Shown: one piece after another, positions 6,690 through 63,405 of the stretch
Layout: the number at the start of each line of letters is the position of its first letter
Position numbering within the stretch: the first letter of the stretch is position 1
NCBI RefSeq assembly: GCF_900009135.1
Contig: NZ_LT797688.1
Location: 713,660-777,659, forward strand
Direction: 5' to 3'
Origin: Planktothrix sp. PCC 11201
GTDB taxonomy: Bacteria > Cyanobacteriota > Cyanobacteriia > Cyanobacteriales > Microcoleaceae
DNA length: 64,000 bases
Made by a program: the position numbers and the translations under genes
Notes under the pieces: generated by a model
What the model was told of the DNA's origin: nothing
Databases searched by the model: none
Seen by the model: the letters and a program-made list of their open reading frames with translations, nothing else

Positions 6690-7736
6690 ATGAGCAAACT
6701 TACCTCTACGGATTCTATTATAATTCAAACTGATCATTCTGATGCTATTAAATTTATGATCAATCAACAAATTACTTATAGTCGGGCTTATACCTTAGTT
6801 CCGACCTATGATTGTTTTAATCGCTGTAGTTATTGTAACTTTAGAACCGATATCGGTACAAGTCCTTGGTTAACCTTAACAGCAGCCGAAGAAATCTTAA
6901 AAACCCTAGGAGATCAAGGAATTATTGAAATTTTAATTTTAAGTGGAGAAGTCCACCCCCATAGTTATCAACGTTTAGCCTGGTTTAAACGGATTTATGA
7001 ATTATGCGAATTAGCGATATCCCTGGAATTTTTACCCCATACCAATGTGGGGCCGTTAACTTTTGCCGAAATGAAACAATTAAAACAGGTGAATGTTTCC
7101 ATGGGGTTAATGTTAGAACAAATCAATCCAAAATTATTAGAAACCGTTCATCGTTACTCCCCTAGTAAAATCCCAGGACTGCGGTTAGAACAGTTAGAAT
7201 GGGCAGGAGAATTAAAAATACCATTTACCACGGGTTTATTATTGGGAATTGGAGAAACCTCCGCAGACTGGCGAGATACTTTAAAGGCAATTGCAAAGAT
7301 TCATAAACGATGGGGGCATATTCAAGAAGTGATTTTACAACCCCATAGTTTAGGGAGTCAACAAAGCGATCCCAGAAACAGTTTTAATTTAGAACAATTA
7401 CCCGAAGTTGTAGCGATCGCCCGTTCTATTCTACCTCCTGATATTACCTTACAAATACCCCCCAATTTAGTGACTAATCCTGATATCTTATTAGCCTGTT
7501 TGGAAGCCGGGGCGCGGGATCTTGGTGGAATCAGCCCCCGTGACGAAGTGAACCCCGACTATCCCCAGGATCATGATCAAGCCTTACAGACGATTCTAGC
7601 CCCCAAGGGCTGGGCATTAGTACGACGGTTGCCCGTTTATCCCCAGTACGATCGGTGGGTATGCCCTGACCTGCAAGGAGTTGTAGCTCAATGGCGAAAA
7701 AAACTTGCTATTTCAGAAACACCTGTGCTATATTGA
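6690..7736 (+). CDS. cofG: FO synthase subunit CofG (radical SAM)
   Basis: The 7,8-didemethyl-8-hydroxy-5-deazariboflavin synthase subunit, 348 residues. Cys42, Cys46 and Cys49 form the radical-SAM CxxxCxxC cluster motif within YDCFNRCSYCNFR, characteristic of CofG. With CofH it makes the deazaflavin FO, which in cyanobacteria serves as the antenna chromophore of DNA photolyase. CofH is not in this window. An alternative start at Met23 would still leave the whole catalytic domain. It is followed after 16 bp by tRNA-Cys, so co-transcription is possible, with a hairpin terminator just after the tRNA. Confidence 0.92.
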   Translation: MSKLTSTDSIIIQTDHSDAIKFMINQQITYSRAYTLVPTYDCFNRCSYCNFRTDIGTSPWLTLTAAEEILKTLGDQGIIEILILSGEVHPHSYQRLAWFKRIYELCELAISLEFLPHTNVGPLTFAEMKQLKQVNVSMGLMLEQINPKLLETVHRYSPSKIPGLRLEQLEWAGELKIPFTTGLLLGIGETSADWRDTLKAIAKIHKRWGHIQEVILQPHSLGSQQSDPRNSFNLEQLPEVVAIARSILPPDITLQIPPNLVTNPDILLACLEAGARDLGGISPRDEVNPDYPQDHDQALQTILAPKGWALVRRLPVYPQYDRWVCPDLQGVVAQWRKKLAISETPVLY

Positions 7737-7752
7737 GTAACTGCATGGTCAT

Positions 7753-7823
<71 letters not shown>

Positions 7824-7846
7824 TTAAAATAATTAATCTATCCTAC

Positions 7847-7869
7847 ATACTCTTTGGAGAGTATTTTTT
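7847..7869 (+). terminator. Rho-independent terminator after tRNA-Cys
   Basis: A perfect 7-bp stem ATACTCT/AGAGTAT (7847-7853 and 7858-7864) with loop TTGG, followed directly by a run of T (7864-7869). It lies 23 bp after the tRNA. Confidence 0.85.
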
Positions 7870-7872
7870 GTT

Positions 7873-8239
7873 TTGTTAATAGCTGTTTTTCAAGCAATTG
7901 GAAAAGTTAGAAAGCTAATCATTTGGAAACAGGGAAAAGCAGATTCTCATTTGGTCAAAAGGGTTCGCTTAGGTCATTTGCCCGATGATGCTACCCTTGA
8001 ACAATATAATATGATCATCACTTTTGTGGTCAACAGTCCAGACGCCAATGTCTATCTTTATGTTTATGGAGAAACGATTTATCCGACGTTGGTAGCTAAT
8101 GTGGAGAATCCAGCTATGGTTAGTAATGATTGGCTTAGATGGGGTTTTAGAAACTGCTTTTCCTCCCGATGACCCGAAAGGGTATCTATCTAATTCAGCC
8201 TTTATCTATCTGGGTTCAGTTAAGGAGTTAGAAATATGA
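7873..8239 (+). pseudogene. Frameshifted conserved cyanobacterial small protein
   Basis: The first frame (7873 to a stop at 8172) gives a 99-residue product ending in WLRWGFRNCFSSR. The neighbouring frame continues from about 8138 with DGVLETAFPPDDPKGYLSN and SAFIYLGSVKELEI and stops at 8237-8239. Removing one base, for example A8137, joins them as WLDGVLETAFPPDD, giving about 121 residues. This reads like an intact family member with a central TIYPTLVA segment. The joined frame would overlap the next gene by ATGA, as translationally coupled pairs do. So this is a one-base frameshift: a real mutation, a slippage product or a sequencing error. The function is unknown. The start (TTG at 7873) lies right behind a terminator and is uncertain. 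Confidence 0.7.
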
Positions 8240-8538
8240 ATCCTCTCTTAAAAAACTATTGCGTGAGTGTTGAGTTTCCTGATGTTAGTGGTGCGGAGCA
8301 TTTAGAAATGTTACAAATGCGCGATCGCCTTACAGAAATTGAACCTCAACTCACTGAGGAAGAAAAAATCTTATTGACAAAAGCAGACCGTCAATTAGTT
8401 GAGAATGCCAACAGTTTTTATCAGGAATTATCACGTTTTATTAATTTAACAGAGAAGCGCAAAGCTCAATTTATTTGTCCTCAACGTTGGTGGTGGTATT
8501 TAGATGTACTAGCGGTTTTGCCCATATCCTGCAAATAA
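8236..8538 (+). CDS. Hypothetical protein, coupled to frameshifted gene
   Basis: A 100-residue, acidic, mostly helical protein that I do not recognise by family name. The middle part (LTEEEKILLTKADRQLVENANSF) is helical and the C-terminal part contains a Trp-rich stretch, QRWWWYLDVL. Its ATG (8236) overlaps the restored stop of the upstream frame (8237-8239), so the two form an operon. It has a good ribosome site (AAGGAG, 8222-8227). The two-gene, small-protein, overlapping layout resembles a toxin-antitoxin module, but no known toxin or antitoxin motif is visible, so that remains a guess. Confidence 0.6.
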   Translation: MNPLLKNYCVSVEFPDVSGAEHLEMLQMRDRLTEIEPQLTEEEKILLTKADRQLVENANSFYQELSRFINLTEKRKAQFICPQRWWWYLDVLAVLPISCK

Positions 8539-8620
8539 TAGTAAGCTAAAAGATTGATAGAGATAGGTTAGTTAGTTTTAGCCATTAACATTAAGACAGA
8601 ACAACTTTAAAAATTATTTG

Positions 8621-9913
8621 TTAATCTTGGATTTGCTTAAAAATCCAATAAATCCAATTTTTAACGGTAGATTGGCGTCTTCCTGGGGTGGTCTTCTGAA
8701 TATCAGCACGAGAAGACAAGATAATTTCGCATATTTCTCCTTTTGATGGTATTTTTCCCCTAGATAAATTTAATTGAAATACTGTATAAAAAACTTGATA
8801 TTCCAAAATTTTCCTGATTAAAGAAAGATATTTATTTTTTTGTCTTTTGCTTAAAATTTCTTTAGCTTCCTGTGTCAAACGAAAGGTTATATCACCTGTA
8901 CCAATAGCTTTGTATTTTTCTACAAGTCCAAGATATTGACCTGCATTTGTATAATACCCGGTTTGTCTCTGATCAAATTGATAATTTTCTGTAATTTCCT
9001 CTCTCGTTAAATCTCTTTCTACTAAAAGGGATAGTAAGTCAATGACCCGTTCAAAGTTATTTGCTTGGGGGAATGGTATACTAGGTTCTGGAATTAAAGT
9101 GATAGTTTCAAAAATATCAGAAACATCCTGCTGTGTAATTTCTTCGGGTGCGATAATATAATTTTTTTGTTCAATTAAGCGAAGGGAGTTATAATCAGAT
9201 TTATTCTGAAACTCATAAATAAAAAAGCTGAATATGTCGTTGGAATAAGTCATCAAAACAGGAACAACTTTTTTAGTTATTTTTTCTGACCATAATCGAT
9301 AAGGATAATATAATTGCCTAATTATAAAATTATCAACTTGATATTTTTTAGCTTCGATTAAAATTAAATATTCGTCACTTTCAAAACCTGCATCTATTTC
9401 GCATTGACTATTAATGACTGAAATGGGATAACTTTGATTGTTTAAATAACTTTTAATTTTGAAATCAAAGCAACCAGAGGACATTCTTCCAGAAAGTGTA
9501 AAAGATGTTTTCTCTCCTAATAAGTCGTCGATAATTCCTGTATTAAATGCACAACTTATAGCAGATGCTTCCGAATATAGATGGGTATAGTCTATACTTT
9601 TTATATAAGAAGGAAACTCTATTTCAATGAGTTCTATATCAGTAGAATATTCAAGATTAAAGTAGGCATTAAAACAACCAATAATATATTTTGAACGAGA
9701 AATAGGCAATATGGATAAATTATGATCCTTAAAAATTTGGGGTAAATTAACTGAATGATCAAACTTAGCCATTAACCGACTTTCTCGTTCTTCATTAATT
9801 TGAGTCGCTTCTATTTCAAAATAACCTTGTTTAGCAATAATATCTAAAATGCTATATCGTTGGAATAATGTTTCCCAAGCAATATCATTTTTCCCTAGTT
9901 TTTTGTCGTTCAT
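8621..9913 (-). CDS. Type II restriction endonuclease, PD-(D/E)xK
   Basis: A 430-residue protein encoded 5 bp after the adenine methyltransferase. Residues 172-189 read EIDAG...LILIEAK, giving Asp174 and Glu187-Ala-Lys189 as a PD-(D/E)xK nuclease core. The C-terminal third (about 285-430) looks like winged-helix DNA-binding segments (LTREEITENYQFD..QTGYYTNAGQYLGL). The partnership implies cleavage at the sequence the methylase protects, probably GATC or a site containing it; this is inferred from the methylase, not from this protein. It is not recognisably a DpnII-like nuclease. The gene is very AT-rich and contains no HIP1 octamer, in contrast to its surroundings, which suggests horizontal acquisition. 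Confidence 0.75.
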   Translation of the reverse strand: MNDKKLGKNDIAWETLFQRYSILDIIAKQGYFEIEATQINEERESRLMAKFDHSVNLPQIFKDHNLSILPISRSKYIIGCFNAYFNLEYSTDIELIEIEFPSYIKSIDYTHLYSEASAISCAFNTGIIDDLLGEKTSFTLSGRMSSGCFDFKIKSYLNNQSYPISVINSQCEIDAGFESDEYLILIEAKKYQVDNFIIRQLYYPYRLWSEKITKKVVPVLMTYSNDIFSFFIYEFQNKSDYNSLRLIEQKNYIIAPEEITQQDVSDIFETITLIPEPSIPFPQANNFERVIDLLSLLVERDLTREEITENYQFDQRQTGYYTNAGQYLGLVEKYKAIGTGDITFRLTQEAKEILSKRQKNKYLSLIRKILEYQVFYTVFQLNLSRGKIPSKGEICEIILSSRADIQKTTPGRRQSTVKNWIYWIFKQIQD

Positions 9914-9918
9914 TTATT

Positions 9919-10788
9919 TTAAGGTTTGGGATCATAATTTAACACTAAAACCTCATTAATTTTACCTCGTTTAACAGCATTAGAATTGATACTGCGGGTT
10001 GCAGAAACAATTTTAGTTGTATCTTTATAATCTTTATACAAATCTGAAATAAACTCTGTTGCTGAGTTACTCAACATTACATGACATCCTTTTTCTGTTA
10101 ATTCATCAACAACTTGTTTTAAACGTCTTTGTTCATTTTGATTAAACCCATTAATATCATATCCGGTGAAAGAAGCGGTATTAGAAACCGGATCATAGGG
10201 AGGATCAAAATAGATAAAATCATCTTTTTTGGCATCTTTAACCGCTTTAGCAAAATCAGTATTTAAAAATTTTACTGTATTTTGATTCAAATAATCATTA
10301 ACTCCTCTTAATACAGCCTCGTCTAATATATTGGGATTTTTATAACGACCAAAGGGAACATTAAAATATCCTTTAGAGTTCACTCTAAATAATCCATTGT
10401 AACAAGTTTTATTTAAATAAATAATTCTAGCTGCTTTTTCGGCTTCGGAGAATTTAAGATAGTCTTTTTTAAAACGATCTCTTTCACGAAGATAATCATA
10501 GTATTCTTTTGAATTGCTGGTCTTGTGATCTTTTAAAATCTCAATCAGTTCTTCAACATTATCCTTAATCACTCGATAACAATTAATTAATTCGCCGTTA
10601 CTATCATTAACAATTGCTTTTTTAGGCTGTAACTCAAATAAAAGTGCACCTCCCCCCAAAAAGGGTTCAAAATATGTAGTCTTACCGATATTTTTAGGGA
10701 GATATTTTAGGATTTCAGGTAATAATTGCCGTTTCCCTCCTGCCCATTTCAAAAAAGGTTTAACTAGAGGATTTTTTTGCACAGTCAC
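9919..10788 (-). CDS. Dam/DpnM-like adenine-N6 DNA methyltransferase
   Basis: A 289-residue alpha-class (D12) N6-adenine methyltransferase. Motif X is FLKWAGGKRQ (12-21), motif I is FEPFLGGGA (40-48, SAM binding) and motif IV is DPPY (195-198, catalytic). The spacing and the segments YFNVPFGRY and YFDPPYDPVS match the Dam/DpnM/MboI group, which methylates GATC; GATC specificity is inferred. The start is a GTG at 10788 with GAGGA about 11 bases upstream. It is the first gene of the restriction-modification operon and has a strong promoter at 10826-10854. Codon use is AT-rich and there is no HIP1 site in the gene. Confidence 0.92.
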   Translation of the reverse strand: MTVQKNPLVKPFLKWAGGKRQLLPEILKYLPKNIGKTTYFEPFLGGGALLFELQPKKAIVNDSNGELINCYRVIKDNVEELIEILKDHKTSNSKEYYDYLRERDRFKKDYLKFSEAEKAARIIYLNKTCYNGLFRVNSKGYFNVPFGRYKNPNILDEAVLRGVNDYLNQNTVKFLNTDFAKAVKDAKKDDFIYFDPPYDPVSNTASFTGYDINGFNQNEQRRLKQVVDELTEKGCHVMLSNSATEFISDLYKDYKDTTKIVSATRSINSNAVKRGKINEVLVLNYDPKP

Positions 10789-10825
10789 AGGTCAGTAATT
10801 CCTCAAAATTTTATTAACATATTTC

Positions 10826-10854
10826 ATTTTAGCTTGAATTGAAATTCTAGTCAA
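10826..10854 (-). promoter_or_regulatory. Sigma70-type promoter of the R-M operon
   Basis: Read on the minus strand, TTGACT (10854-10849) and TAAAAT (10831-10826) are separated by exactly 17 bases, about 38 bp before the methylase GTG. This is a near-consensus housekeeping promoter. Confidence 0.7.
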
Positions 10855-10881
10855 TATTTTGATTTAAAATTAAAATATTGA
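10851..10881. promoter_or_regulatory. Perfect dyad spanning both divergent -35 boxes
   Basis: TCAATATTTT (10851-10860) and AAAATATTGA (10872-10881) form a perfect 10-bp inverted repeat with an 11-base spacer. Its left arm overlaps the -35 of the leftward R-M promoter and its right arm overlaps the -35 of the rightward kinase promoter. It is a candidate operator for a dimeric repressor acting on both transcription units. No controller (C) protein gene is adjacent. Confidence 0.5.
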
Positions 10882-10907
10882 TGTATTCTATCGATTAGAG
10901 TTATAAT
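10878..10907 (+). promoter_or_regulatory. Sigma70-type promoter of the kinase operon
   Basis: TTGATG (10878-10883) and a perfect TATAAT (10902-10907) are spaced by 18 bases. The first coding ATG is at 11034, so a leader of about 120 nt is expected. Confidence 0.6.
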
Positions 10908-11033
10908 AAGTTATGAAGCCGTTAAACATCTAAATCAAACATCTAAATCGTAAACCTCATACCGTACCAGTATCTATAGCCTTCGGCATACTAGAAATAC
11001 TGGCTAGAATATAGAAGTGCCCAAGAATAACAG

Positions 11034-14000
11034 ATGAATACCCCAATTTCTAACTATCAAATTATTGAGCAAATTTATCAAAGTGCTAATTCAGTGGTCT
11101 ATCGGGGAATTCGTTTAGAGGATTATCAACCTATAATTCTCAAAGTCCTGAAAGAAGATTATCCCACTTCCGTCGAACTAACCCGCTATAGACAGGAATA
11201 TCAAATTACCCAAAATCTGAATATAGATGGGGTGATTAAATCCTATAGTTTAGAACCCTATCAAAGAACATTTATGATCATTTTAGAGGATTTTGGGGCA
11301 TCCTCATTAACTCAATTTATTCAGAATAATTCTACCCTGGAAAAACGATATACTTTTCCTATTGATCAGTTTATTAAAAATGCCATTAAAATCACTAAAA
11401 TTTTAGGAAAAATTCATGGTGCAGGTATTATTCATAAAGACATTAATCCTTCTAATATTGTCTATAACCCCAAGGGGGAAAAACTAAAAATTATTGATTT
11501 TGGGATTTCCACAACCTTCACCCGTGAAAATCCCATCCTGAAAAATCCCAATCTCTTAGAAGGGACTTTAGCTTATATCTCCCCAGAACAAACCGGACGA
11601 ATGAACTGCTCCTTAGATTATCGCACCGATTTTTATTCTTTGGGAGTAACTTTTTACGAACTCCTGACTGGACAGTTACCTTTTGACACGCAAGATCCTT
11701 TAGAATTAGTCCATTGTCATATTGCGAAACAACCCATTCCGCCCCATGAAATTCAGCCTACAATTCCAATTTTTTTATCCAAAATTGTGATGAAATTAAT
11801 GGAAAAAACAGCTGAGAATCGATATCAAAGTACCTGGGGAATTCAAGCAGATTTAGAATACTGTTTAAACCAGTTACAAACAGATAAAATTATCCATAAT
11901 TTTCCATTAGCTACTCAAGATATTACGGATAAATTTCAAGTTTCCCAAAGACTTTACGGACGGAAAACCGAAGTCAATCAACTCCTATCTGCCTTCGCGC
12001 GGGTCACATCTTCAGAACAGTCAAAACCAGGAGAAATAGAAAACAATAAAGTTGAGGTGATGTTAATTACCGGTTATTCGGGGATTGGTAAATCATCTTT
12101 AGTCCAGGAAATTTATAAACCAGTTACTGAAAAAAGAGGTTATTTTATTTCAGGTAAATTCGATCAACTTCAGCGAAATATTCCCTATTTTGCCGTTGTT
12201 AATGCCTTTAAAGAATTGGTAAAACAACTATTAAGTGAAAGTTCAGAACAGCTTAATCAATGGCGAGAAAAATTATTAACGGTATTGGGAATTAATGGAC
12301 AGGTGATTATTGATGTAATTCCCGAGGTGGAATTAATCATTGGCAAGCAGTCTCCGGTCGCTGAAATCGGGTTACAAGAATCTCAAAATCGGTTTAATTT
12401 TGTTTTTAAAAATTTTATTCAAGCCCTTTGTACACAAGATCATCCTTTAGTGATTTTTCTGGATGATTTGCAGTGGGCAGATGGGGCAAGTCTGAAATTA
12501 ATTGAACTCATTCTAACGGATGGTAATATTCAACACTTATTAATCATTGGGGCTTATCGAGATAACGAAATCCATCCGACCCACCCGTTGATGCAGATGA
12601 TTAATCAACTGCATCAGGCGGAATTAAAAATTAATTATATTCAGTTAAAACCCTTAACTTTAGAAGCAGTAAGTCAACTGATTAAAGATACTTTATACAG
12701 TGACATTTTATCCGTAAAACCTTTAGCGGAATTAGTCATAAAAAAAACCGCAGGAAATCCTTTTTTTATTAATGAATTTCTAAAAATGCTCCACAGTGAA
12801 AATTTGTTAACTTTTAACCTCTCGCCATCTTTCCCAACTCAAGGCAGAAGTTTAAGGGGATGTTGGCAGTGGAATATTGAAAAGATTGAATATAAAAACA
12901 CTACAGATAATGTCATAGATTTGATGACTAGTAAATTTAAAAAACTTCCAGAATCTACTCAAGAAATTTTACAATTTGCTGCTTGTGTCGGAGCTTTTTT
13001 TGACTTAAATACTCTTGCTGTTATTAGTCAAAAATCTCCCACCAAAGTCTATCAAGAGTTGACTGTAGCATTACAATCTGGTTTTATACTCACAACTTCA
13101 GAATTAGATTCTCAACTCTTAATCCAAGATTATAAATTTTTGCATGACCGGGTACAACAAGCGGCTTATGCTTTAATTGACCCTACCAAAAAACAAGAAA
13201 TTCATTTACAAATGGGTTGTCTATTATTAGAAAACATTAAGCCAAAACTACTGTCTGAGGAAGTTTTTGAAATTGTTGATCACTTAAATTTTGGTTTGGT
13301 AAATAGGCAGAATATCGCAGCAGTTTTACGAGGAAAACTAGCTGAAAATGAGATCTCAAAACTAAATTTTATGGCAGGTCAAAAAGCCAAATCTGCCAAC
13401 GCCTATCAAGCCGCCGCCGAATATTTTAATCAAGGGCTAAACTTCCTCCATCAAAGCAGTTGGCAGACGGCATATCCCTTAACTTTAGCACTGCATCAAG
13501 CGGCCATAGAAGTCGCCTATCTCAAGGGTCATTTTAATGAAATGGAAACCTTGGGAAACGTTGTTTTAAATCAGGCTAAAAATGCCCTGGACACAGTAAA
13601 AGTTTATGATGCTAAAATTCAAGCCTCGGTGTCTCAAGGCAACCTAAAAGCCGCCATTAAAACTGGCTTAGAAGCACTAAAAATCTTGGGCATCAGCTTA
13701 CCGGAAAAACCCAGTCATTCAGATATTAATAATAGCTTAAAACAGACTGCTTTACTCTTGAATGAATATGAAATCAAAGATTTAATTAATCTGCCTCCGA
13801 TGGTGGATTCTCAAGCCTTAGCAGCGATGTATATTCTTTCAAGTATAACCGCTTCAACTTATATTTCCGATCCTGAGTTATTCTTGTTAGTAACCACATC
13901 ACAGGTTAATTTATCCATCCAATATGGCAATACCACCGAATCCGCAATGGGTTATGCGTGTTATGGCGCTCTTTTATGTGGAGTTGTCGAAGATATTGAG

Positions 14001-17000
14001 TCGGGTTATCAATTTGGGGTCTTAGCTTCCAATTTAGTTAAAAAACTAAACGCCCAAAAAATAAAAGCAAAAGTAGATGATGCTTTAGCTGGTCATATTA
14101 TTACTTGGAAAGACCATTGTCAGAAAATGCGACCCATTGCTATTGAAGGGTATTATAGCGGATTAGAAAATGGAGAATTAGAATTTTCTAGCTATTGTGG
14201 TTTTTGGGTTTGTGTGAGTCCCTATTTTGTTGGTCATGAATTAAGAGATCTTGAACAAGAAATGGCTACTTATAGTCAAGCAATTAGCCAAACCCGACAA
14301 GAAGCAGCCGTGAATTGGATTGCTATATTTTGGCAAGCTACACAGAACTTATTAGGAAAATCAGAAAATCCGATGCAGTTAACGGGTAATATTTACAACG
14401 AAGAACAATACCTTACCCTGGCAATTGCAGCAAGTGATCGAGTTCAAATCAACTTTTTTTATCTAAATAAACTGATATTATGTTATCTGTTTAATCATTA
14501 TGATCAAGCCCAAGATCATGCCATTCTTGCCGAACAACATTTAGATGGTGTCATGGGAATGATCGTTGTTCCTATTTTCTATTTTTATGATTCTTTGGTG
14601 CATTTAAAATTATCAACTCAGACCACAAATTATGACCCAGAAATTTGGATTAATCGAGTCACTAGGAATCAAAACAAAATGCGAAAATGGGCAACTCATG
14701 CCCCAGACAATTTCTTAAATAAGTTTTACTTAGTTGAGGCAGAAAAAGCTCGGGTTTTGGGACAAATCCTAGAAGCAGAAGACTATTATGAACAAGCTAT
14801 TTTTCAAGCATCGGAAAATAAATTTATTCAAGAAGAAGCATTGGCTTACGAATTAGCAGCTGAGTTTTATTTGAGCCGAGGTAGGTTAAAAATTGCTCAA
14901 ACTTATATGAAAGAATCCCATTACCTTTATAAACGTTGGGGAGCCAAAACGAAAGTAGAGGATTTAGAAACTAAATATCCCCAGTTAATTTCCTCTTTAT
15001 CCTCAATTAAAAGTGTTAATTATACCCTGCATCTCAATTCTCAATCCACAACAGGAACCCAATCAGATGAAGTCTTAGACTTGGCTGCGGTAATCAAGGC
15101 ATCCCAGGCAATTTCAGGTGAAATTTTAATCGATAAATTGCTGATTATTTTAATGAAAGTTTTAATCGAAAATGCCGGGGCGCAACTGGGATATTTAATT
15201 GTGAAAACTGGAAATCAATTTCTAATTGAAGCTGAAGGATCAGCCGATTCTGATAGGGTTAAGGTGTTACAGTCGATTCCGGTGGATGGGAGTCATTTAG
15301 TCGCTAATTCTATTATTAATTATGTTGTTAATACGGGAGAAACCGTTGTTTTAAAAAATGCGGGTTGCGAAGGAAAATTTATTAATGATCCTTATATTAA
15401 AGTAAAACATTCTAAATCAATTCTCTGTTTACCTTTGATTAGTCAAGGACGACTGACCAGTATTATGTATTTGGAAAATGATCGGGCAACAGGTGCATTT
15501 ACCCAAGATCGTTTAGAAATATTAAAACTTTTATCTACTCAGGCTGCGATCGCCATTGAAAATGCTAAACTCTATGCAAATTTAGCAGAATCTAATCGAA
15601 CTTTGGAAACCAAAGTGGAGGAACGCACGGCTGAGTTAGCGATCGCTAAACAAAAAGCAGAAGCCACCGCCGACTCTAAAAGTGCATTTTTGGCAAATAT
15701 GAGTCATGAATTGCGATCACCTTTGAATACTATTCTGGGTTTCACTCAAGTGCTGCTGAAAAATTCTGATTTAACCGCAGAACACCGGGAAAAAATTCAG
15801 ATCATTCATCGCGGTGCTGAACATTTGTTAGCATTAATTAGCGATGTCCTTGATATGGCTAAAATTGAATCGGGATGTACGACCCTAAATCCCATTAATT
15901 TCAACCTTCATAACTTTCTCAATGGCTTAAAAGAGATGTTTGATTTGAAGGCACAGGAAAAAAAATTGGATTTTGTTTTGGAGTATAGTTCTAATCTTCC
16001 CCAGACAGTATTTTATGATCAAGTAAAGTTACGTCAAGTCTTAATTAATTTACTCAGTAATGCCTTTAAATTTACGTCATTAGGTCGGATAAGTTTGCGG
16101 TCTAAACTAAAAAAAATAAATGACCAAAATTATCTTGATTTTGAAGTTGAAGATCAAGGATGTGGAATTTTTGCCGATGAAGTGGACAAAATTTTTCAAC
16201 CTTTTATTCAAACCAAAGCTGGACAGCAAGTGCAAGGAGGAACGGGCTTAGGATTAGCAATTAGCAACCATTTTGTTCAACTGATGGGAGGGAAAATTAG
16301 CGTGGAAAGTGAAGTAGGAAAAGGAACAATTTTTAAGTTTAATATTCCCGAGCAAGCCGTTACAGATGCTCATGCAGAAACTTCTGAAAATAAAAATCAA
16401 GTGATCCCCTTAGAACCCGATGCCAAAAATCACAAAATTTTAATTATTGACAATCATCCAGATACCCGACTTTTGCTAATTGAACTCCTCCAACCTTTGA
16501 ATTTAGACGTTAAGGAGGCAAACAACGAGACAGAGGGCATTCAAATGTGGGAAACTTGGCAACCCGATTTGATTTTAATTGATGTACAAATTCCCAGAAA
16601 AAAGGGAGATAAAATAACGCAGACAATCCGAGAAAAAGAGCGAGAAAAAGCAGAATTAGAACCCTTTAACCCCGTTAAAATTATTGCGATTAGTGCCAGT
16701 CACTTTGATTCAGACTTCGACCAAAATCAAGCAATGGGGTACGATGATCTGATCAGTAAACCTTTTACAGAAGCAGATATTTTTGAAGCTATCTATGGGC
16801 AGATTCAGGTTGAAATGGGTTATAGTAGAGGTGACTTCCCATTAGAGGAAACCTCAAGTTCTTGGAATCCTAACCCCGAAATTTCGTCAGTGTCTATATT
16901 AACCCGTTTAGTGGCTTTGACTCCTGACTTAATTGATCGCTTAGAGCAGGCTGTGATTCGCCTCAACACTAGTTTAATCGAGTCCATTTCAAAAGAGATA

Positions 17001-56944: not shown

Positions 56945-56993
56945 GGAGTCATAATATATTTAATCCCAAAATTAAGTTAAACTAAAATCTCCT

Positions 56994-57638
56994 ATGTATT
57001 CAACTAACCCTGAAATTGAATTTAAGCAGATTCAGAATATTGATCATCCTGATTTTGAGACTGCGATCGCACTTTATGAAGAAACATTTCTATCTCCAGA
57101 ACGAATTCCAACGCCTTGGATACGGGAAGCAATTTTAACTCAAAAAACTCAACTCTGGTTGGGTTATTTTCAACAAGAATTTGCCTTGATATCAATTTTA
57201 TATCCCCTGCCTGGTTCTAACTTTATCTTATTAGCTTATTTAGCAACAATCCCCCATTTAAGAAATATTAAAATCGGTTCTCAATTTTTGAATTATCTGA
57301 TAGATTTAGTTAAAAAAGAGTCGAAAACCTTAGTCTTAGAAGTTGAACATCCTGATTTTGGAGATCATCGAGAATTAAAGCAGCGTAGAATTGCCTTTTA
57401 TAAACGGTTGGGTGCAAAAGAATTACAAGATATTATTTATATTTTACCTGCTTTAGATGGAACTCAAACTACAGAAATGATCTTGATGATTATTGATGAT
57501 AATAATTCGGAAAAGATCCAAAAAACTGTTGTTCAACAGTTAGTTAGAGAGTTATATATAGAAATATATCATCTTGATTCTGATGAACCTATTTTTAACT
57601 GGATTGAGGATATTCAGGACGATATTGCTTTGATTTGA
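56994..57638 (+). CDS. GNAT-like N-acetyltransferase
   Basis: A 214-residue protein. A GNAT core spans about 15-150: the acetyl-CoA-binding motif appears in LRNIKIGSQFLNYL, followed by LVLEVEHPDFGDHRE and FYKRLGAKEL, the usual last strand-helix pattern. The C-terminal 60 residues are acidic and low complexity. The substrate is unknown. It is a single gene with a short leader. Confidence 0.75.
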   Translation: MYSTNPEIEFKQIQNIDHPDFETAIALYEETFLSPERIPTPWIREAILTQKTQLWLGYFQQEFALISILYPLPGSNFILLAYLATIPHLRNIKIGSQFLNYLIDLVKKESKTLVLEVEHPDFGDHRELKQRRIAFYKRLGAKELQDIIYILPALDGTQTTEMILMIIDDNNSEKIQKTVVQQLVRELYIEIYHLDSDEPIFNWIEDIQDDIALI

Positions 57639-57711
57639 AGCAACCACAAAGATACGAATAAAGCCGGAGTCAGGGGATTTGGGTATACCTGATGCCAAAT
57701 TCTACTAAAAT

Positions 57712-59037
57712 TTAACGATTCATTTGACGAGTAGCAAGATCAATTTTTTTAACAAAATAATCCTCTCGATATTTTAACTGTTGTGCTAATCCTAATCCTT
57801 GTTGGAAGGCGGCGATCGCAGATTGATAGGCTTTTTGTGATAAATAAATATCTCCTATTTGATCATAAGCATTCATCATTCCATAATAATTATAAGCCTG
57901 TTGATTGACTAAAACTTGGGCTTGGTAAATGTCTAAAGCGGTTTTAATTTGATTTTGAGACCGATAGAGTTTACCCAGTCTCCCTAATGCTTCACTAGCA
58001 TTATCAAACTGTTGAATTGAAGTAGCAATACTGTAGGCCTCTTGATAAGTTAATCCCGCTTGTTCAAATTGTTCTAATTTTTCATAATTCCAACCAATAC
58101 CTAACTTAATTTCTGGAATTGGCAATAAATTTTGCTGATTTGCATAATATCCAGCCAGTCTTTCTTTAACAGAAATAGCCTTTAAATATTCTCCTGTTTG
58201 TTCATAAATAAAAGCCAACTGTTGTAGCGATCGCACTTCACTGGGTGGGGGTGTGGGGTTGGGATTTTCCGGTGTAGCTGGTTGGGTTGGCGGCGGTAGT
58301 ACATCCCCTTTAATGGCGCGGATTTCCTGTTGTAATTCTAGCAATTTTTCATAGGTTTGGGCGGCGTTGGGATAGTCTAACCACATCATATAAATTTGAG
58401 CAATTTCATTAAAATATTGTTCTTGGGCTAAACTATCTTGACTTTGATTTGCCGTTTCTAATAATTGTTGATATAGGCTTAAAGCTGAATTTTTAGCCCT
58501 AATATTCTTAAATGCTAATCCCAAGGATTCCCATAATTGAAGATCATTAATCTTTTCCTTGTTAAGTTTTTGTGAAATTTGATCAAGACGTTCTGTGATA
58601 AATTTTATATATAATCTTTGACTATTATTCCAAGCAATTAACCCGACTCGATTTAAAGCTGCAATTTCTTGAGACAATCCAAAATAACGACGAATTCTCA
58701 ACTCTCGGTTCCATAATTCAAACGCACCTGGAATATTTCCCGCCACTAATAATCCTGTAGCTTCCGCATTGAGTTTAACTAATTCAGGTTCTAATATTTG
58801 CTGTTGACTTTGACCTAAAACTTGACCGTCAGGGGGAGGAGAAGGGAGTAAAGGATCGGATTCTTTACTGAATAATGGGTTAGGAGAAAAATCATCTAAT
58901 AAAGGTTTTTCTGGTTCGGGTTGTTTTGGCTTTTGGGCGATCGCAACTCTAGTATTTCCTAAACTAGACAAGATTACAATAACAGCTATTAAAATAATAT
59001 TTACTGTCTGCATAGTCAGTTTTTTTAGGTTGATCAT
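57712..59037 (-). CDS. Exported TPR protein
   Basis: A 441-residue protein from the ATG at 59037 (MINLKKLTMQTV). A hydrophobic signal helix with ILIAVIVILSSLG and a cleavage region near AIAQKP points to export. The rest has at least five TPR-like helical units (YFNEIAQIYMMWLDYPN, AISVKERLAGYYANQQ, ALGRLGKLYRSQNQ, YDQIGDIYLSQKAYQ). It also has a Pro-rich loop (PPPTQPATPENPN). It is a scaffold without enzyme motifs. It follows the HTH gene by 38 bp in the same direction and probably shares its transcript. Confidence 0.8.
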   Translation of the reverse strand: MINLKKLTMQTVNIILIAVIVILSSLGNTRVAIAQKPKQPEPEKPLLDDFSPNPLFSKESDPLLPSPPPDGQVLGQSQQQILEPELVKLNAEATGLLVAGNIPGAFELWNRELRIRRYFGLSQEIAALNRVGLIAWNNSQRLYIKFITERLDQISQKLNKEKINDLQLWESLGLAFKNIRAKNSALSLYQQLLETANQSQDSLAQEQYFNEIAQIYMMWLDYPNAAQTYEKLLELQQEIRAIKGDVLPPPTQPATPENPNPTPPPSEVRSLQQLAFIYEQTGEYLKAISVKERLAGYYANQQNLLPIPEIKLGIGWNYEKLEQFEQAGLTYQEAYSIATSIQQFDNASEALGRLGKLYRSQNQIKTALDIYQAQVLVNQQAYNYYGMMNAYDQIGDIYLSQKAYQSAIAAFQQGLGLAQQLKYREDYFVKKIDLATRQMNR

Positions 59038-59075
59038 AAAATTAATAGCGCAGAATTTAAAATAGAATCTATTTA

Positions 59076-59510
59076 TTATTCTATAACTATTTTCAACTGT
59101 TTGTAAACAGTCCAATCAGTTATTTTAGGATTTCGTCCTACAAATTGACCATAAGTTCTTTCTTTTTGCCAAGTTTCTTCCCGATAATTTAAGGGAGGAG
59201 AATCAGGAGGATTTGGCTTTTGATAATTTTTCCATTTACGCTCAATAGCGGCTTTAAAATCGTCTTTTTTTACTTTTTCTCCAAGGGCTTCTGAAAGTTT
59301 TTGCCAAAATTTATTACCAGCATCTCCACGAAAATAGTCTAAGGAGTAGCCTGAATCATTAGCTATTTGTTGATAAGTTTTATCCTGCCAAGAACCACGA
59401 AAAATGATCGTTTCTACATCACTCACATAACGCTGAAATTTATCATAAAAACTTTTATTTGCGACTTCTAAAGCTTCATCTTCACTTAAGTTACTGAATT
59501 GAGATTCCAT
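59076..59510 (-). CDS. Stand-alone vMAP-type N-terminal HTH protein
   Basis: A 144-residue protein from the ATG at 59510 (a GTG four codons earlier is possible). Residues about 10-100 match the N-terminal helix-turn-helix seen in cyanobacterial vWA-MoxR-associated (vMAP) proteins: SEDEALEVANKSFYDK, IIFRGSWQDKTYQQIANDSG, LDYFRGDAGNKFW and KLSEALGEKVKKDDF. In that family this part precedes an NB-ARC ATPase. Here it is followed by only about 40 residues (YGQFVGRNPKITDWTVYK), where FVGRN resembles the very start of such an ATPase. So it is either a naturally short adaptor or a truncated gene. No C-terminal ATPase remains downstream. Confidence 0.72.
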   Translation of the reverse strand: MESQFSNLSEDEALEVANKSFYDKFQRYVSDVETIIFRGSWQDKTYQQIANDSGYSLDYFRGDAGNKFWQKLSEALGEKVKKDDFKAAIERKWKNYQKPNPPDSPPLNYREETWQKERTYGQFVGRNPKITDWTVYKQLKIVIE

Positions 59511-59792
59511 AAGATTAAACACTCCTACCTGACTTAACCTGACTTGACCTGACTTCTCATTATATCAGATGTTCAAAGCCCTGACTTGAACCGTATCGAC
59601 TGTTTTAACAAGCTAAGAGAGCATAGGGTTATTGGTTTATGGGTTCAGTTTTAGTTCACTTTGTTGCACGAACAGGATTGATCTCAAACTGAGTAATTTA
59701 ACCCTAATAAATCAAGCATTCTGGAAATATACGAGTAAGCACAGTTGGCCGACGAGCTTCTCATCCCACTTAAGATTGAGAGGTAATCTGTG

Positions 59793-59966
59793 ATGAAACG
59801 TCTTTCTTTGACTAAAATCTTACTCCTTGTGAGTTTAATGCTTCATGGTGTTAACTTAATCGGTAAAATTTTGCCTTATAATCAACCTGCTTTTGCTTCT
59901 CCAGATCCTTTTGAAGTTAAGGTTAATCATAATTGTCCAGATGGTAATACAGGAGGAACAAAGTAG
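59793..59966 (+). CDS. Small secreted peptide
   Basis: 57 codons with a good ribosome site (GAGAGG at 59778-59783, 9 bases before the ATG). A Lys/Arg start followed by a hydrophobic stretch (LLLVSLMLHGVNLIG) and an AFA-S cleavage site near residue 35 is a clear signal peptide. The predicted mature part is about 22 residues with one Cys and one Pro-rich end (SPDPFEVKVNHNCPDGNTGG). It is too short for a known domain. It is convergent with the kinase gene, with a hairpin between them. Coding status is inferred from these features. Confidence 0.5.
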   Translation: MKRLSLTKILLLVSLMLHGVNLIGKILPYNQPAFASPDPFEVKVNHNCPDGNTGGTK

Positions 59967-59979
59967 TTTGTAATTCTAA

Positions 59980-60009
59980 CTAGATTTGCCTAGATTATAG
60001 GCAATCTAG
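59980..60009. terminator. Imperfect hairpin between peptide and kinase genes
   Basis: CTAGATTTGCCTA (59980-59992) and TAGGCAATCTAG (59998-60009) pair with one bulged base. It lies between two convergent genes. There is no strong T-run. Confidence 0.55.
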
Positions 60010-60027
60010 CTTAGTTTTATAAAATCA

Positions 60028-61584
60028 TTATTGTTTAACTTTCTGCTTTGCTAATTCTTGCCATTCTTTGATTTCTGGCTGATCATCTGGAGCAGAATAA
60101 GTTAAACATTTTTGCCATTTTTCCTGTGCTGATTCTTGTTCAGCTTCTAATACTTGTGCCATTAAACAGTAAGGTGGTGCTAGATTTAAGTTTAAGTTAA
60201 TTGCCTGTTTTAGAGATTGTTTCGCAGCCGATAATTGTCCTGATTTTAATTGTGACCAGCCTAAATTTTTGTAGAGATTATGTTTGGTTTTAATCTCAGA
60301 ATTAGGATTAATTTTTAAACTGGTCTCAATTAAAGTAATAGCTTGATTGTAATTACCTGTTAAAATTTCTAAACGAGCTAAATTATTGTAAGATTTGTCT
60401 AAATTCCCTATATCAATAGCTTTTTTATATTCATTTTTGGCTGAACCTAATTGTTCTTGATTGTCATAAATTAATCCTAAGTTATGATGAGCCGAAACAG
60501 ATTTATTATTGAAAAATAAGGCTAAACGATATTGCCATAAAGCACTATTATAATTGGATTGGTTAAATGCTTGTAAACCACTCTCATTAAGTTGTCTAGA
60601 AATTTGAGGTGATAATAAAGATAAAATTAGAGAGGTTACAACTAAAAAGGTAGCTATAGGAATTGTATTTAATAAAAATTTTTGTTTTTGAATTAAAAAG
60701 AAATAATGCCAATAATTTTGGTGTTTTATTAGCTCTAAAATTTGATTAATATTTTCGTTTTTTTCTTGTTCTATCGCGTCTAAGTATTGTAAAATAATTG
60801 ATGTATTCTGAGGACGTTTACCCGGATATTCTTCGATCATATAGTTAATTAATTTTGCTAAAGATTGAAATTCATCTTTAAGTGTGTTTTTGGCAAAATC
60901 TTCAGGATTATTTCCTGTTAATAAACTCACAAAAGTGCGCCCTAATGCAAAAAAATCTGATTGAGGAAAACATAAACCTGTAAATTCTTGTTCTGGTGGT
61001 GTATATAGGGGAGATACAATTTTTGTACCAGATTCATTTTTACCCATCTTAATTAAATAAGTTGTTGTCATTTGTCTAACAGCACCAAAGTCAATTAAAA
61101 CTAAAGTTCCATCAGACTTTAAGATAATATTTTCTGGTTTAATATCTCGGTGTATCAGTTTCTCTTGATGAATTATAGCAATAGTTTTTGTTAATTGCTT
61201 TAACCAATTTAGAGCTATTATTATATTAGGGATTTTTTGATTTTTTTCTAACCACTGTTGTAAATTTTCTCCAGTAACTTTTTCCATTACTAAACAATGT
61301 AATGGTGTTAAATAACCTTCTGGGGTAATGGTAAAGTAATCATAACCTTTAGGGATACCAGGATGAGCTAATTTTTGTAATACTTTTGCTTCTTGTTTAA
61401 ACAGAGAAATGATTTTATTTTGATCTTTTTCTGGATAATATTGAAATTTATGCTGCTGGAGTATTTTTAATACTTTATGTTCTTGATCTTGGAGATCATA
61501 GACTTCCCACACTTCTCCAAATCCTCCTGTTCCTAAAAGACAGATCACTTGATATCTATGATTAATTATTTGTCCTATTTCCAT
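60028..61584 (-). CDS. Ser/Thr protein kinase with TM helix and TPR tail
   Basis: A 518-residue eukaryotic-type kinase. Kinase domain about 10-270: glycine loop LGTGGFGEVWE, HRDIKPEN (145-152), DFGAVR (165-170), YTPPEQ (194-199). A transmembrane helix at about 305-327 separates it from four or more TPR units (about 332-500; YNSALWQYRLALFFN, YKKAIDIGNLDKSYNNLARLE). The kinase side is cytoplasmic and the TPR tail is therefore probably periplasmic. Its start overlaps the 3' end of the NTPase gene by 23 bp (61562-61584), so the two are translationally coupled. Targets are unknown. Confidence 0.93.
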   Translation of the reverse strand: MEIGQIINHRYQVICLLGTGGFGEVWEVYDLQDQEHKVLKILQQHKFQYYPEKDQNKIISLFKQEAKVLQKLAHPGIPKGYDYFTITPEGYLTPLHCLVMEKVTGENLQQWLEKNQKIPNIIIALNWLKQLTKTIAIIHQEKLIHRDIKPENIILKSDGTLVLIDFGAVRQMTTTYLIKMGKNESGTKIVSPLYTPPEQEFTGLCFPQSDFFALGRTFVSLLTGNNPEDFAKNTLKDEFQSLAKLINYMIEEYPGKRPQNTSIILQYLDAIEQEKNENINQILELIKHQNYWHYFFLIQKQKFLLNTIPIATFLVVTSLILSLLSPQISRQLNESGLQAFNQSNYNSALWQYRLALFFNNKSVSAHHNLGLIYDNQEQLGSAKNEYKKAIDIGNLDKSYNNLARLEILTGNYNQAITLIETSLKINPNSEIKTKHNLYKNLGWSQLKSGQLSAAKQSLKQAINLNLNLAPPYCLMAQVLEAEQESAQEKWQKCLTYSAPDDQPEIKEWQELAKQKVKQ

Positions 61585-63325
61585 GATTAATCACACCTGA
61601 TAAATAACTAATATTGATTTGGAAATATCCTAAACCAGAACTTGAATCCAGTTTGAATAATAAATCTTGTAATTGAGTATATAAATCTTCAGAACAGTTT
61701 AAATTAATAAGTTTGTCTATAATTTTGTTCGATAGTTTAGGATTAATTAAGTTGTTATTAGGATTAGGATAAACTAAAGGATGAGTCCTCAATAATCCTA
61801 TATTTTGCCAATTTTTGGTTTTGATCACTGCTATAATATTAGCGCAAAACTTTTCTACAAATAAATTACTAACATATTTCTTAATAAATGGAGGTAGGCT
61901 ATAAGTTATTTCTGTATTATTAGCATCTTGAATTAAGAGCGATCGCCGTTTGAGTGATTTCATCGTATCAAGAATATCTGTCCCTGATAAATAGTGATCA
62001 AAAACTTGTTTTAACTGTTCTTGGGACAAATTTTCAGTAACAATAGCCAGGAAATAAATAATATCTATTTCCTGTGATGATAGTTTGGTAAATGCCTGGA
62101 TAATATAGTTACTAATAACATCACTTACTAGGAGTGAACTTTGTTTAAAATATTGTAAAATATTCCCATTAAATTCTTGTTTAATATCCTGTGCTACTAG
62201 GTTAAGAACTCCAGGGTGATAACTATAACGTCTGATTAAATTAGTTAAAACTTGAGTATCTTTACCCAATCCTTGATGTTCAAAAATCTGGAGAGCAGAG
62301 GCTGGATCTAATCCCTTTAAATCCCACAAATAAACTGGGATTTGTTGAGATAATAACATTTCAAATTGTATCGGTTTTTCTTGACTTATAAATAACCCAC
62401 AACTTTGATGAGATGTTTTAGCTATTTGGCTTAATAACTCTCCATACTCTTGATATTCCTGGCGGTAATAACCTGCTAAATTTTCTGATTTTAAAAGTTC
62501 TTCCCAATTATCTAATATAAGTAAACAACGATGGTTACGAAAATAATCAATAATTGGTTTTATATCTTCAGTAAAATTTGTAGATTGTTCGGTTAAATCA
62601 TGCCAAAATAAAGAAAAAGGCTTAGGATTAGATAAAGTTTTATAAATAATACACTCAAACTGATCTGTGATTTGCTCTAAAAGATTTACGATGAAAGTTG
62701 TTTTACCAATTCCAGCCATTCCCGATAGTAGAATAACTTTTGTTTGTTTATTACTCAGCCATTCCAATAACTGATTTAACTCAGTTTTTCGCCCATAGAA
62801 TATAGACTGATGGGGAAGTTCATCTAAATTAGATTTTAAGGAAAAATTATCAGATTGTGGAGGTAGCTGCTCAGTCATTTCTTGAATTTCTTGCCAATCC
62901 AAATCCAGAATAGCACAATAAATTTTGAATGCAGTCTCATTCACAGGTTTTCTTATAGATTTTGAAGCAAATCTATTCCAAGTTCCCCAAGAAATATTCT
63001 TTACAAAAAGTTCACCAGATTCAATAAAATTTTTAATATTATCCAGTAAAGTATATTTTGATGATTTAATTATTTCTCTCTTAATTTCTGCTATTTTTGC
63101 TATTTTTTGTGCTTCGGTTTGATTTTTAGCACCTTCACAATAAAAAATCTGTTCAAAATCTTTTAACCACTCACGAGCATTGTTACCCAAATTATGGGCT
63201 GCTTGATATTGTTGAATGTACTTAAAACAAGCTGCTACTAAAGGTCTAGTATCCTTCTGACTAACATTCCATTTTTTAGTTTCAATAGCCTCTCTGATTT
63301 TTTTCTGTCCTTCTTCAGATGCCAT
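61562..63325 (-). CDS. STAND/NB-ARC NTPase with N-terminal vMAP-like domain
   Basis: A 587-residue protein from the ATG at 63325 (MASEEGQKKIREAI; an ATG at 63343 adds six residues). Residues about 1-155 (counted from 63325) are a helical, charged, probably DNA/protein-binding region with a repeated KxxxEIQxx pattern, resembling the vMAP-type N-terminus. The ATPase core starts at FYGRKTELNQLLEW; Walker A is GMAGIGKTT (about 202-210), Walker B LLILDNWEE and sensor GLFISQEKP. The C-terminal half is helical winged-helix-like and contains no TPR or WD repeats. STAND proteins oligomerise after sensing and drive conflict or death responses. It forms an operon with the kinase. Confidence 0.85.
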   Translation of the reverse strand: MASEEGQKKIREAIETKKWNVSQKDTRPLVAACFKYIQQYQAAHNLGNNAREWLKDFEQIFYCEGAKNQTEAQKIAKIAEIKREIIKSSKYTLLDNIKNFIESGELFVKNISWGTWNRFASKSIRKPVNETAFKIYCAILDLDWQEIQEMTEQLPPQSDNFSLKSNLDELPHQSIFYGRKTELNQLLEWLSNKQTKVILLSGMAGIGKTTFIVNLLEQITDQFECIIYKTLSNPKPFSLFWHDLTEQSTNFTEDIKPIIDYFRNHRCLLILDNWEELLKSENLAGYYRQEYQEYGELLSQIAKTSHQSCGLFISQEKPIQFEMLLSQQIPVYLWDLKGLDPASALQIFEHQGLGKDTQVLTNLIRRYSYHPGVLNLVAQDIKQEFNGNILQYFKQSSLLVSDVISNYIIQAFTKLSSQEIDIIYFLAIVTENLSQEQLKQVFDHYLSGTDILDTMKSLKRRSLLIQDANNTEITYSLPPFIKKYVSNLFVEKFCANIIAVIKTKNWQNIGLLRTHPLVYPNPNNNLINPKLSNKIIDKLINLNCSEDLYTQLQDLLFKLDSSSGLGYFQINISYLSGVINHGNRTNN

Positions 63326-63364
63326 CAAGGTTTGACCTGTCATGGTTAGTTTAGGTTAATTGTC

Positions 63365-63405
63365 AAGATCAGTTGAGATCAGTAATTAATTGATCTTAGC
63401 AGATC
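63365..63405. promoter_or_regulatory. GATC-rich dyad upstream of STAND operon
   Basis: Four GATC sites start at 63367, 63377, 63392 and 63402, in two pairs with 10-bp spacing. AAGATCA (63365-63371) and TGATCTT (63391-63397) form an inverted repeat. It lies in the 143-bp gap between the divergent STAND gene and the small plus-strand gene, where both promoters must be. A methylation-sensitive operator is possible. Confidence 0.4.

Follow-up and report, generated by a model that had tools for sequence, protein, structure and literature searches.

A sensor-less STAND NTPase and an adjoining membrane Ser/Thr kinase as a candidate signalling pair of cyanobacteria

We analysed a 64-kb stretch of DNA (the window) from Planktothrix sp. 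PCC 11201, which has a genome of 5.99 Mb, and describe here two adjoining genes, one encoding a STAND NTPase with an N-terminal helix-turn-helix (HTH) region, and the other a Ser/Thr kinase with a tetratricopeptide repeat (TPR) tail. We consider it moderately likely that the two constitute a signal transduction module, in which a membrane Ser/Thr kinase bearing an outward-facing TPR sensor works with an HTH-STAND transcription factor, and the evidence favours a signalling pair of a little-known kind over a suicide system. This reading is based on computation, and draws on the adjacency of the two genes, the co-evolution of their products, the kinase residues, the lack of a sensor in the STAND protein, the swapping of HTH domains within a constant architecture, and tandem repeats linked to HTH class.

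The window NTPase contains an NBD-HD-WHD nucleotide-binding oligomerisation domain (NOD) with a Walker A motif, as is typical of STAND proteins, and its chain terminates after a helical arm. A C-terminal repeat sensor was not found in the chain, no repeat family being present among the best 25 of 30 Pfam matches; the sensor of this short STAND NTPase is presumably provided by the kinase gene. The kinase contains one predicted transmembrane (TM) helix (residues 303-321, from hydropathy), and because this single helix precedes the TPR tail, a location of the tail outside the membrane is reasonable. An earlier model-made reading of the DNA (the first-pass annotation) had proposed the kinase as a sensor or brake for the STAND protein, and a membrane sensor of this kind is plausible. 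It had also described four genes on one strand, with the NTPase overlapping the kinase by 23 bp; four minus-strand open reading frames (ORFs) and exactly this overlap were found. The NTPase start that it gave, at 63325, is an internal Met that is missing in locus L231 of a congener, which reads MVGQTFTASKEG there, and a start at 63343 is preferred.

Of the 195 genomes covered by an order-wide search, 177 have relatives of the NTPase. Neighbouring genes were compared in 30 loci from this search, 60 further short-ORF matches, 18 longer refetches, and 80 loci from named genomes. The further matches and refetches were picked by ORF length and not by their neighbours, except that the refetches favoured short-ORF loci already seen; a few listed short ones were left out. 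Among the named-genome loci holding NTPase relatives, 79 of 80 were cyanobacterial, the exception being L079. Removal of duplicates left 163 NTPases, which were called short at up to 700 aa, and paired if a same-strand kinase lay within 600 bp. Among NTPases whose locus extends far enough to show the next gene, a same-strand downstream kinase of the window kinase's family was present for 52 of 94 best-scoring short, sensor-less ones, compared with none of 46 long ones (Fisher 1.2e-12), and a further 5 short NTPases and 1 long had a kinase farther off or on the opposite strand. Some pairs overlap, by 1 to 32 bp. Viewed from the kinase (148 genomes), a STAND gene lay directly upstream in 21 of the 29 best loci, and for 7 of the other 8 the match to the query is confined to the kinase domain. 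The first-pass annotation had joined the two genes into one unit, and had named a lack of conserved adjacency as grounds for dropping the idea. The adjacency proved to be conserved, the pairs fetched representing 10 family-level codes of one order, and the two genes can be regarded as a real two-gene unit whose products co-evolve.

Evidence for co-evolution was obtained from 53 pairs, in which the distances between NTPase cores correlate with those between kinase domains (r = 0.73; maximum 0.18 in 5000 permutations). The correlation was retained among 34 diverged representatives (r = 0.42, with 0 of 10000 permutations as high), so that paired NTPase and kinase appear to evolve together. Mapped on a tree of 155 NTPase cores, the label for a kinase partner requires 12 changes, compared with a mean of 43.9 for shuffled labels. 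The catalytic Lys (K40), HRD Asp (D147) and DFG Asp (D165) of Hanks-type kinases are invariant in all 53 paired kinases, as are E65 and N152.

Within this constant core, both ends of the pair vary. Pfam families of the 53 paired NTPase N-termini, which overlap, include GerE (18), Sigma70_r4_2 (11) and HTH_31 (10). Classification by regular expression gave 19 GerE-like, 19 KAS/XRE-like including the window NTPase, 5 vMAP-HTH-like, 4 of a second GerE type, 4 with a duplicated domain ('dupl') and 2 others; these labels agree with Pfam in part, and the regular expression missed the window NTPase as a KAS member, its class being assigned through relatives alone. ('vMAP-HTH' is the label given by the first-pass annotation to the window HTH ORF described below; no library model names that HTH.) HTH class among the pairs requires 13 changes on the NBD tree, where the minimum for 7 labels is 6, and the kinase tails comprise TPR_2 (27), CHASE2 (10), Peripla_BP_6 (5) and WD40 (4). 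The N-terminal HTH and the sensor tail of the kinase have been exchanged repeatedly among pairs, and the exchanged part of the NTPase is in most classes an HTH of the DNA-binding type. Separately, five loci (L341, L346, L347, L351 and L354) encode proteins of 307-355 aa in which a GerE-like HTH, recognised by eye, is fused to the same kind of TPR tail. These may be a one-component version of the link from sensor to DNA, and would fit a sensor feeding a DNA-binding output.

In the proposed mechanism, the TPR tail of the kinase would sense an external signal or ligand, and the kinase would then act on the STAND protein, which has no repeat sensor of its own. Phosphorylation, or else direct contact, may open the NOD and allow ATP-bound protomers to multimerise. 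The HTH domains of the multimer might then bind tandem half-sites one helical turn apart in the promoters of target genes, including a site upstream of the module's own gene.

The idea that the HTHs of the module bind DNA was raised because two direct repeats adjoin genes of the window. A tandem of GATCAG lies 23 bp before the NTPase start and is the sole such tandem in the window (p 0.01; 0.06-0.08 under a wider rule); it is kept in both congeners that have the island described below. A repeat of AAGTCAGGT is located upstream of the HTH ORF (p 0.002), and has 3-4 copies in the congeners. In a first set of vMAP-HTH-type genes of the genus, repeats were present upstream of 19 of 34. The repeat rule (period 9-11 bp, 180 bp) was fixed after this set, and was applied to a second set of 40 genes, 39 of them testable. 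At p < 0.05, repeats were found for 20 of 39 genes compared with 20 of 214 same-genus controls (Fisher 8e-9), and at p < 0.01 for 11 of 39 compared with 3 of 214. Among second-set genes less than 60% identical to the first set, 7 of 20 had repeats (Fisher 0.003), and among those below 70%, 8 of 23 (0.002); grouping of both sets at 60% identity gave 33 groups, 19 of them with repeats by the median. About 11 different repeat units occur in the second set, and many orthologues share a unit with the first set. As a further observation, the units differ between vMAP-HTH paralogues and are common to orthologues (TATACAAAAA, AAAAAGTCATA, GTTCTAAAAT, AAAGTACG and more, in L357, L363, L368-L370, L372 and others). 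The paralogue-specific units look like diverged operator specificities.

A second line of evidence was provided by the motif GATCAG, which was found upstream of 17 of 38 KAS-class STANDs; the corresponding figures are 47 of 608 for controls and 9 of 124 for other STANDs, a count that includes the window NTPase because the regular expression missed it. The motif is associated with the KAS class rather than with STANDs of GerE, vMAP or other types. Two copies in tandem, spaced by 10-11 bp, are present in L187, L172, L144 and L082 and upstream of the window NTPase. All 37 places in 120 genomes that contain GATCAGN5GATCAG were inspected, and 6 of them lie by five KAS-class genes, each of which starts 30-52 bp after a copy. 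Two of these genes (L398, L430) were known before, and three (L410/L431, L412, L415) are new. A KAS profile gave no other match among the 142 ORFs of the first 30 tandem loci, or in 178 kb of loci that had been retrieved for different purposes.

A number of results weigh against a DNA-binding signalling pair. Upstream repeats are not enriched over all pairs (9 of 53, or 10 of 53 with the later rule, compared with 27 of 118 controls), and were rejected as a general mark of the 53 pairs. None of the 5 paired vMAP-HTH members, which belong to other families, has them. The repeat evidence therefore derives from the KAS class and from relatives without a paired kinase, and for the window NTPase consists of one tandem. 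To a large extent, the second repeat set is made up of orthologues of the first (19 of 39 at 60% identity), and its claim to independence was cut back accordingly; its genes less than 50% identical to the first set gave 0 of 6. The 17 of 38 for GATCAG includes loci in which the motif had been noticed before it was counted. Tandem GATCAG was also seen upstream of 4 of the 608 controls; in two cases the same intergenic region precedes a KAS gene (L082, L144), in the other two (L083) it does not. The 37 places in 120 genomes hardly exceed the 32 for a reversed control. With regard to the partners, the 94 short relatives were no random draw, and 55% is no census figure; 42 of the 94 have no adjoining same-strand kinase. 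In Planktothrix sp. PCC 11201 itself (25 NTPase and 27 vMAP-HTH matches, in overlapping sets), the STANDs of ~460 aa that were looked at have no consistent partner, their neighbours being unrelated or on the opposite strand, and a downstream partner was rejected as a rule for short STANDs. Four of the 53 paired N-termini, all of class 'dupl', have no recognised HTH. No Ser/Thr specific to kinase-paired STANDs was found in the NBD, and a pair-specific phospho-site there was rejected. Phosphorylation and DNA binding of the STAND protein are steps that we infer, and in the regulator AfsR, discussed below, phosphorylation hardly raises transcription (PMC10936776).

The first-pass annotation suggested a two-part immunity or programmed-death module. 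In such a module, the kinase would sense infection and free the STAND protein, whose N-terminal domain would then kill the cell or arrest its growth. This is unlikely on present evidence. A killing domain (TIR, nuclease, protease or other) was not found in the 53 paired N-termini at E up to 0.01, nor among the first 25 of 90 Pfam families for the 53 paired kinases, and the N-termini belong instead to HTH classes with linked upstream repeats. The kinase matches the anti-phage PD-T4-6 model in PADLOC, but such models match kinase domains broadly, and kinases of several other PADLOC systems match as well; the NTPase matches weak PADLOC models only, the best at 1.1e-5. A conflict-related role is possible, given the patchy presence of the pair in an island with toxin-like cargo.

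A shade less probable again is that the HTH serves as a protein-interaction adaptor, and the STAND protein as a scaffold that clusters or regulates a kinase whose targets lie elsewhere. HTH-like adaptors occur in other conflict systems, and both the four paired N-termini without a recognised HTH and the lack of repeat enrichment over all pairs speak for such an arrangement. Against it stand the tandem repeats upstream of HTH-STANDs, and the association of GATCAG with the KAS class, which led to new KAS genes.

The pair may have additional components. Between its two gene pairs, the first-pass annotation had placed a small secreted-peptide gene; the ORF exists, and lies on the plus strand, convergent with the kinase. 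It encodes 58 aa in all 3 island genomes, with good matches in those 3 only among 59 genomes, and has no convincing Pfam match. Codon-position differences (6/4/7 and 5/2/9) provide weak evidence for coding. Of 44 kinases with TPR tails, 12 have a short exported Cys peptide encoded no more than 350 bp from their stop, compared with 1 of 27 differently tailed kinases and 6 of 390 controls. The rule behind these counts took shape after the first examples had been seen; among the 12, 2 look spurious and 3 are near-copies, and that of L303 is on the kinase's own strand only. It would be a bold and rather improbable extension that the module senses itself, with the exported Cys peptide as ligand of the outward TPR tail, and the kinase driving an HTH-STAND factor that polymerises along tandem operators. 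If true, this would be a peptide-receptor-kinase-STAND pathway of cyanobacteria.

A same-strand ORF of at least 60 aa follows the kinase within 200 bp in 30 of 52 pairs. About 15 of these 30 look exported and DUF928-like by eye, and five have a 4-bp overlap. In the second pair of Planktothrix sp. PCC 11201 (L233), the ORF after the kinase has a DUF928 match (E = 3.8e-5), and proteins that look exported and DUF928-like likewise follow the paired kinases in L040, L187, L114, L130, L077, L188, L139, L141, L075 and L084. A role as periplasmic co-sensor is possible for them.

The remaining genes of the locus (Table 1) have a different history. The first-pass annotation had paired the HTH and TPR genes as a coupled unit; their 38-bp gap is exact, but it is a deletion junction beside a core gene. 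The HTH ORF, for which the Pfam scan gave no convincing match, has 148 aa, compared with open frames of 472-475 aa in its best genus relatives. In two congeners, G198 (L230) and G199 (L231), it corresponds to a 470-aa HTH-NB-ARC protein (65% identity over 140 aa), followed by an overlapping 452-aa gene (TPR by scan in L230), a phytase-like gene and the TPR gene, so that the HTH and TPR genes are separated by 2.7 kb and two genes in both. Window positions 56979-58994 are colinear with L230 429-2442, and 59121-63450 with L230 6129-10460. The space between these blocks is 126 bp in the window but 3.69 kb in L230, so that the window has lost ~3.6 kb. What is left of a second, broken STAND is its N-terminus, the HTH ORF, and its TPR partner is gone. 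The TPR gene is shared by all 10 genomes of the genus (84-91% identity for the nine others), and 6 congeners have it at the empty site with no HTH gene beside it and nothing STAND-like between it and a CpeT-like gene; this comparison left out G197, which is on a short contig. An HTH-TPR operon was therefore rejected.

Table 1. Features of the Planktothrix sp. PCC 11201 locus (window coordinates)
Feature	Position	Strand	Description
HTH-STAND NTPase	61562..63343	-	593 aa; NB-ARC E=1.1e-8 (Pfam)
NTPase segments			divergent KAS/XRE-type HTH region, residues 1-165; NOD, about 170-482; helical arm, 485-591
Ser/Thr kinase	60028..61584	-	518 aa; Pkinase E=6.6e-33, TPR tail (Pfam)
HTH ORF	59076..59522	-	148-aa stub; N-terminus of 470-aa HTH-NB-ARC STAND
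TPR protein	57712..59037	-	441 aa, exported; TPR (Pfam); genus core gene, outside the module
Exported-peptide ORF	59790..59966	+	58 aa; convergent with kinase; candidate third component
Deletion junction	58995..59120	.	126 bp in window, 3.69 kb in congener L230
Tandem GATCAG half-sites	63367..63382	.	10 bp apart; candidate operator of NTPase
AAGTCAGGT x3	59527..59555	-	10-bp period, directly upstream of stub; candidate operator of HTH-STAND

The NTPase ortholog is present in 3 of 10 genus genomes, one of the ten being 73% complete. Neither its ORF nor that of the kinase is disrupted in the window or in G198 (79% and 83% identity). In G199, a deletion of ~660 bp fuses the two into an 881-aa ORF (L231 9111-11756), which lacks the first 56 kinase residues including the catalytic Lys. 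That the pair is a decaying passenger of the island with no present function in this strain is very improbable: the truncated neighbouring STAND, the G199 fusion and the long, divergent branch of the window NTPase on the NTPase-core tree point that way, but the two ORFs are intact in two genomes, neither the candidate operator nor the peptide ORF has been lost, and pairs are widespread elsewhere.

Further genes of interest were seen in and around the island. To the right of the window (L269, G000:C6:770000-789000, positions 7551-15413), the island of Planktothrix sp. PCC 11201 encodes a protein of 597 aa whose sole match, to DUF1664, is weak, another of 1308 aa that matches FtsK/SpoIIIE and S1, one with a weak resemblance to WXG100, and one of the GIY-YIG type; M23-RTX or CHAP-RTX genes are located there in the congeners. 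As a guess, this cargo is type VII secretion system (T7SS)-like. The island also contains a second split unit (L230 11836-14579 and L269 15488-18231), in which a 467-aa HTH-NB-ARC protein of the KAS type is followed by a 444-aa TPR protein, the two copies being 88% identical in the STAND and 98% in the TPR protein. GATCAG was not found within 220 bp upstream of this STAND in either genome. Elsewhere in the genome of Planktothrix sp. PCC 11201 (L279, G000:C27:109334-117272), a STAND gene is broken into two ORFs of 228 and 361 aa, another decaying copy. In three loci of family code f28 (L175, L176 and L177), a short STAND is followed by a same-strand NAD synthase gene, identified by scan in L176 and L177, and by an ORF of the same length in L175; this was taken as lineage-specific synteny, and NAD synthase was rejected as a STAND partner.

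Many HTH-STAND proteins of cyanobacteria are uncharacterised, and few substrates are known for the numerous Ser/Thr kinases of these genomes. Should the pairing hold, many such kinases gain an obvious partner encoded next door, the upstream repeats give the STAND proteins a testable DNA target, and, if the model is true, apoptosome-like ATPases are placed in ordinary sensory gene regulation. A literature search of partial coverage found no paper on a cyanobacterial NB-ARC/kinase pair. NB-ARC has no occurrences in the parts consulted of two surveys of cyanobacterial kinases (PMC2176072, PMC11863333), and WD40 genes are reported to neighbour kinases often (PMC5587647).

The closest precedent for the logic of the module is AfsK-AfsR of Streptomyces coelicolor, in which a Ser/Thr kinase with a C-terminal repeat sensor acts on an NB-ARC (NOD) transcription factor, and the kinase gene lies near that of the factor (PMC10936776, PMC1262709). 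The sites at which AfsK phosphorylates AfsR lie both inside and outside the NOD; ATPase activity is higher in the phosphorylated protein, and a phosphomimic variant shows increased oligomer formation and improved DNA binding (PMC10936776). Here too, a STAND factor with a predicted DNA-binding domain is encoded near a kinase. AfsR differs in having a SARP N-terminus and its own TPR domain, with afsK two genes away, whereas the cyanobacterial pair consists of a sensor-less STAND with an XRE-, GerE- or vMAP-type HTH and an overlapping or adjoining kinase gene, and its kinases, unlike AfsK, carry TPR, CHASE2, PBP or WD40 tails. A SARP N-terminus (trans_reg and BTAD) was not found, either among Pfam families in the window N-terminus or in the tally of 53 members, and the pair would therefore work like AfsK-AfsR without being a member of the AfsR family.

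Other relatives share parts of this arrangement. Cyanobacterial HTH-NB-ARC proteins of ~1200 aa have the same NOD family and in part N-termini of the same HTH classes, but carry a long C-terminal part in cis, and none of 46 has a same-strand kinase within 600 bp. We take these C-terminal parts to be WD40 tails. The VMAP/MoxR-vWA ternary systems are likewise NTP-dependent and have HTH domains among their effectors (PMC7159879); no MoxR ATPase or vWA gene was found among the scanned genes of the window locus and island, from which a few small island ORFs were excluded. MalT also combines a DNA-binding domain with a NOD, and its multimers bind repeated MalT boxes cooperatively (PMC4381067). It differs from the cyanobacterial pair in having its own superhelical sensor and no kinase. 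The DNA-binding domain of MalT is C-terminal. The anti-phage kinase PD-T4-6 resembles the paired kinase in its kinase domain (PADLOC 1e-78, a model match only), but is a single-gene system, and the pair described here has in addition a STAND partner and a TM-TPR tail. PknK, a STAND Ser/Thr kinase, is one polypeptide, unlike the two genes of the cyanobacterial pair. In both, kinase and STAND logic are joined (PMC4381067).

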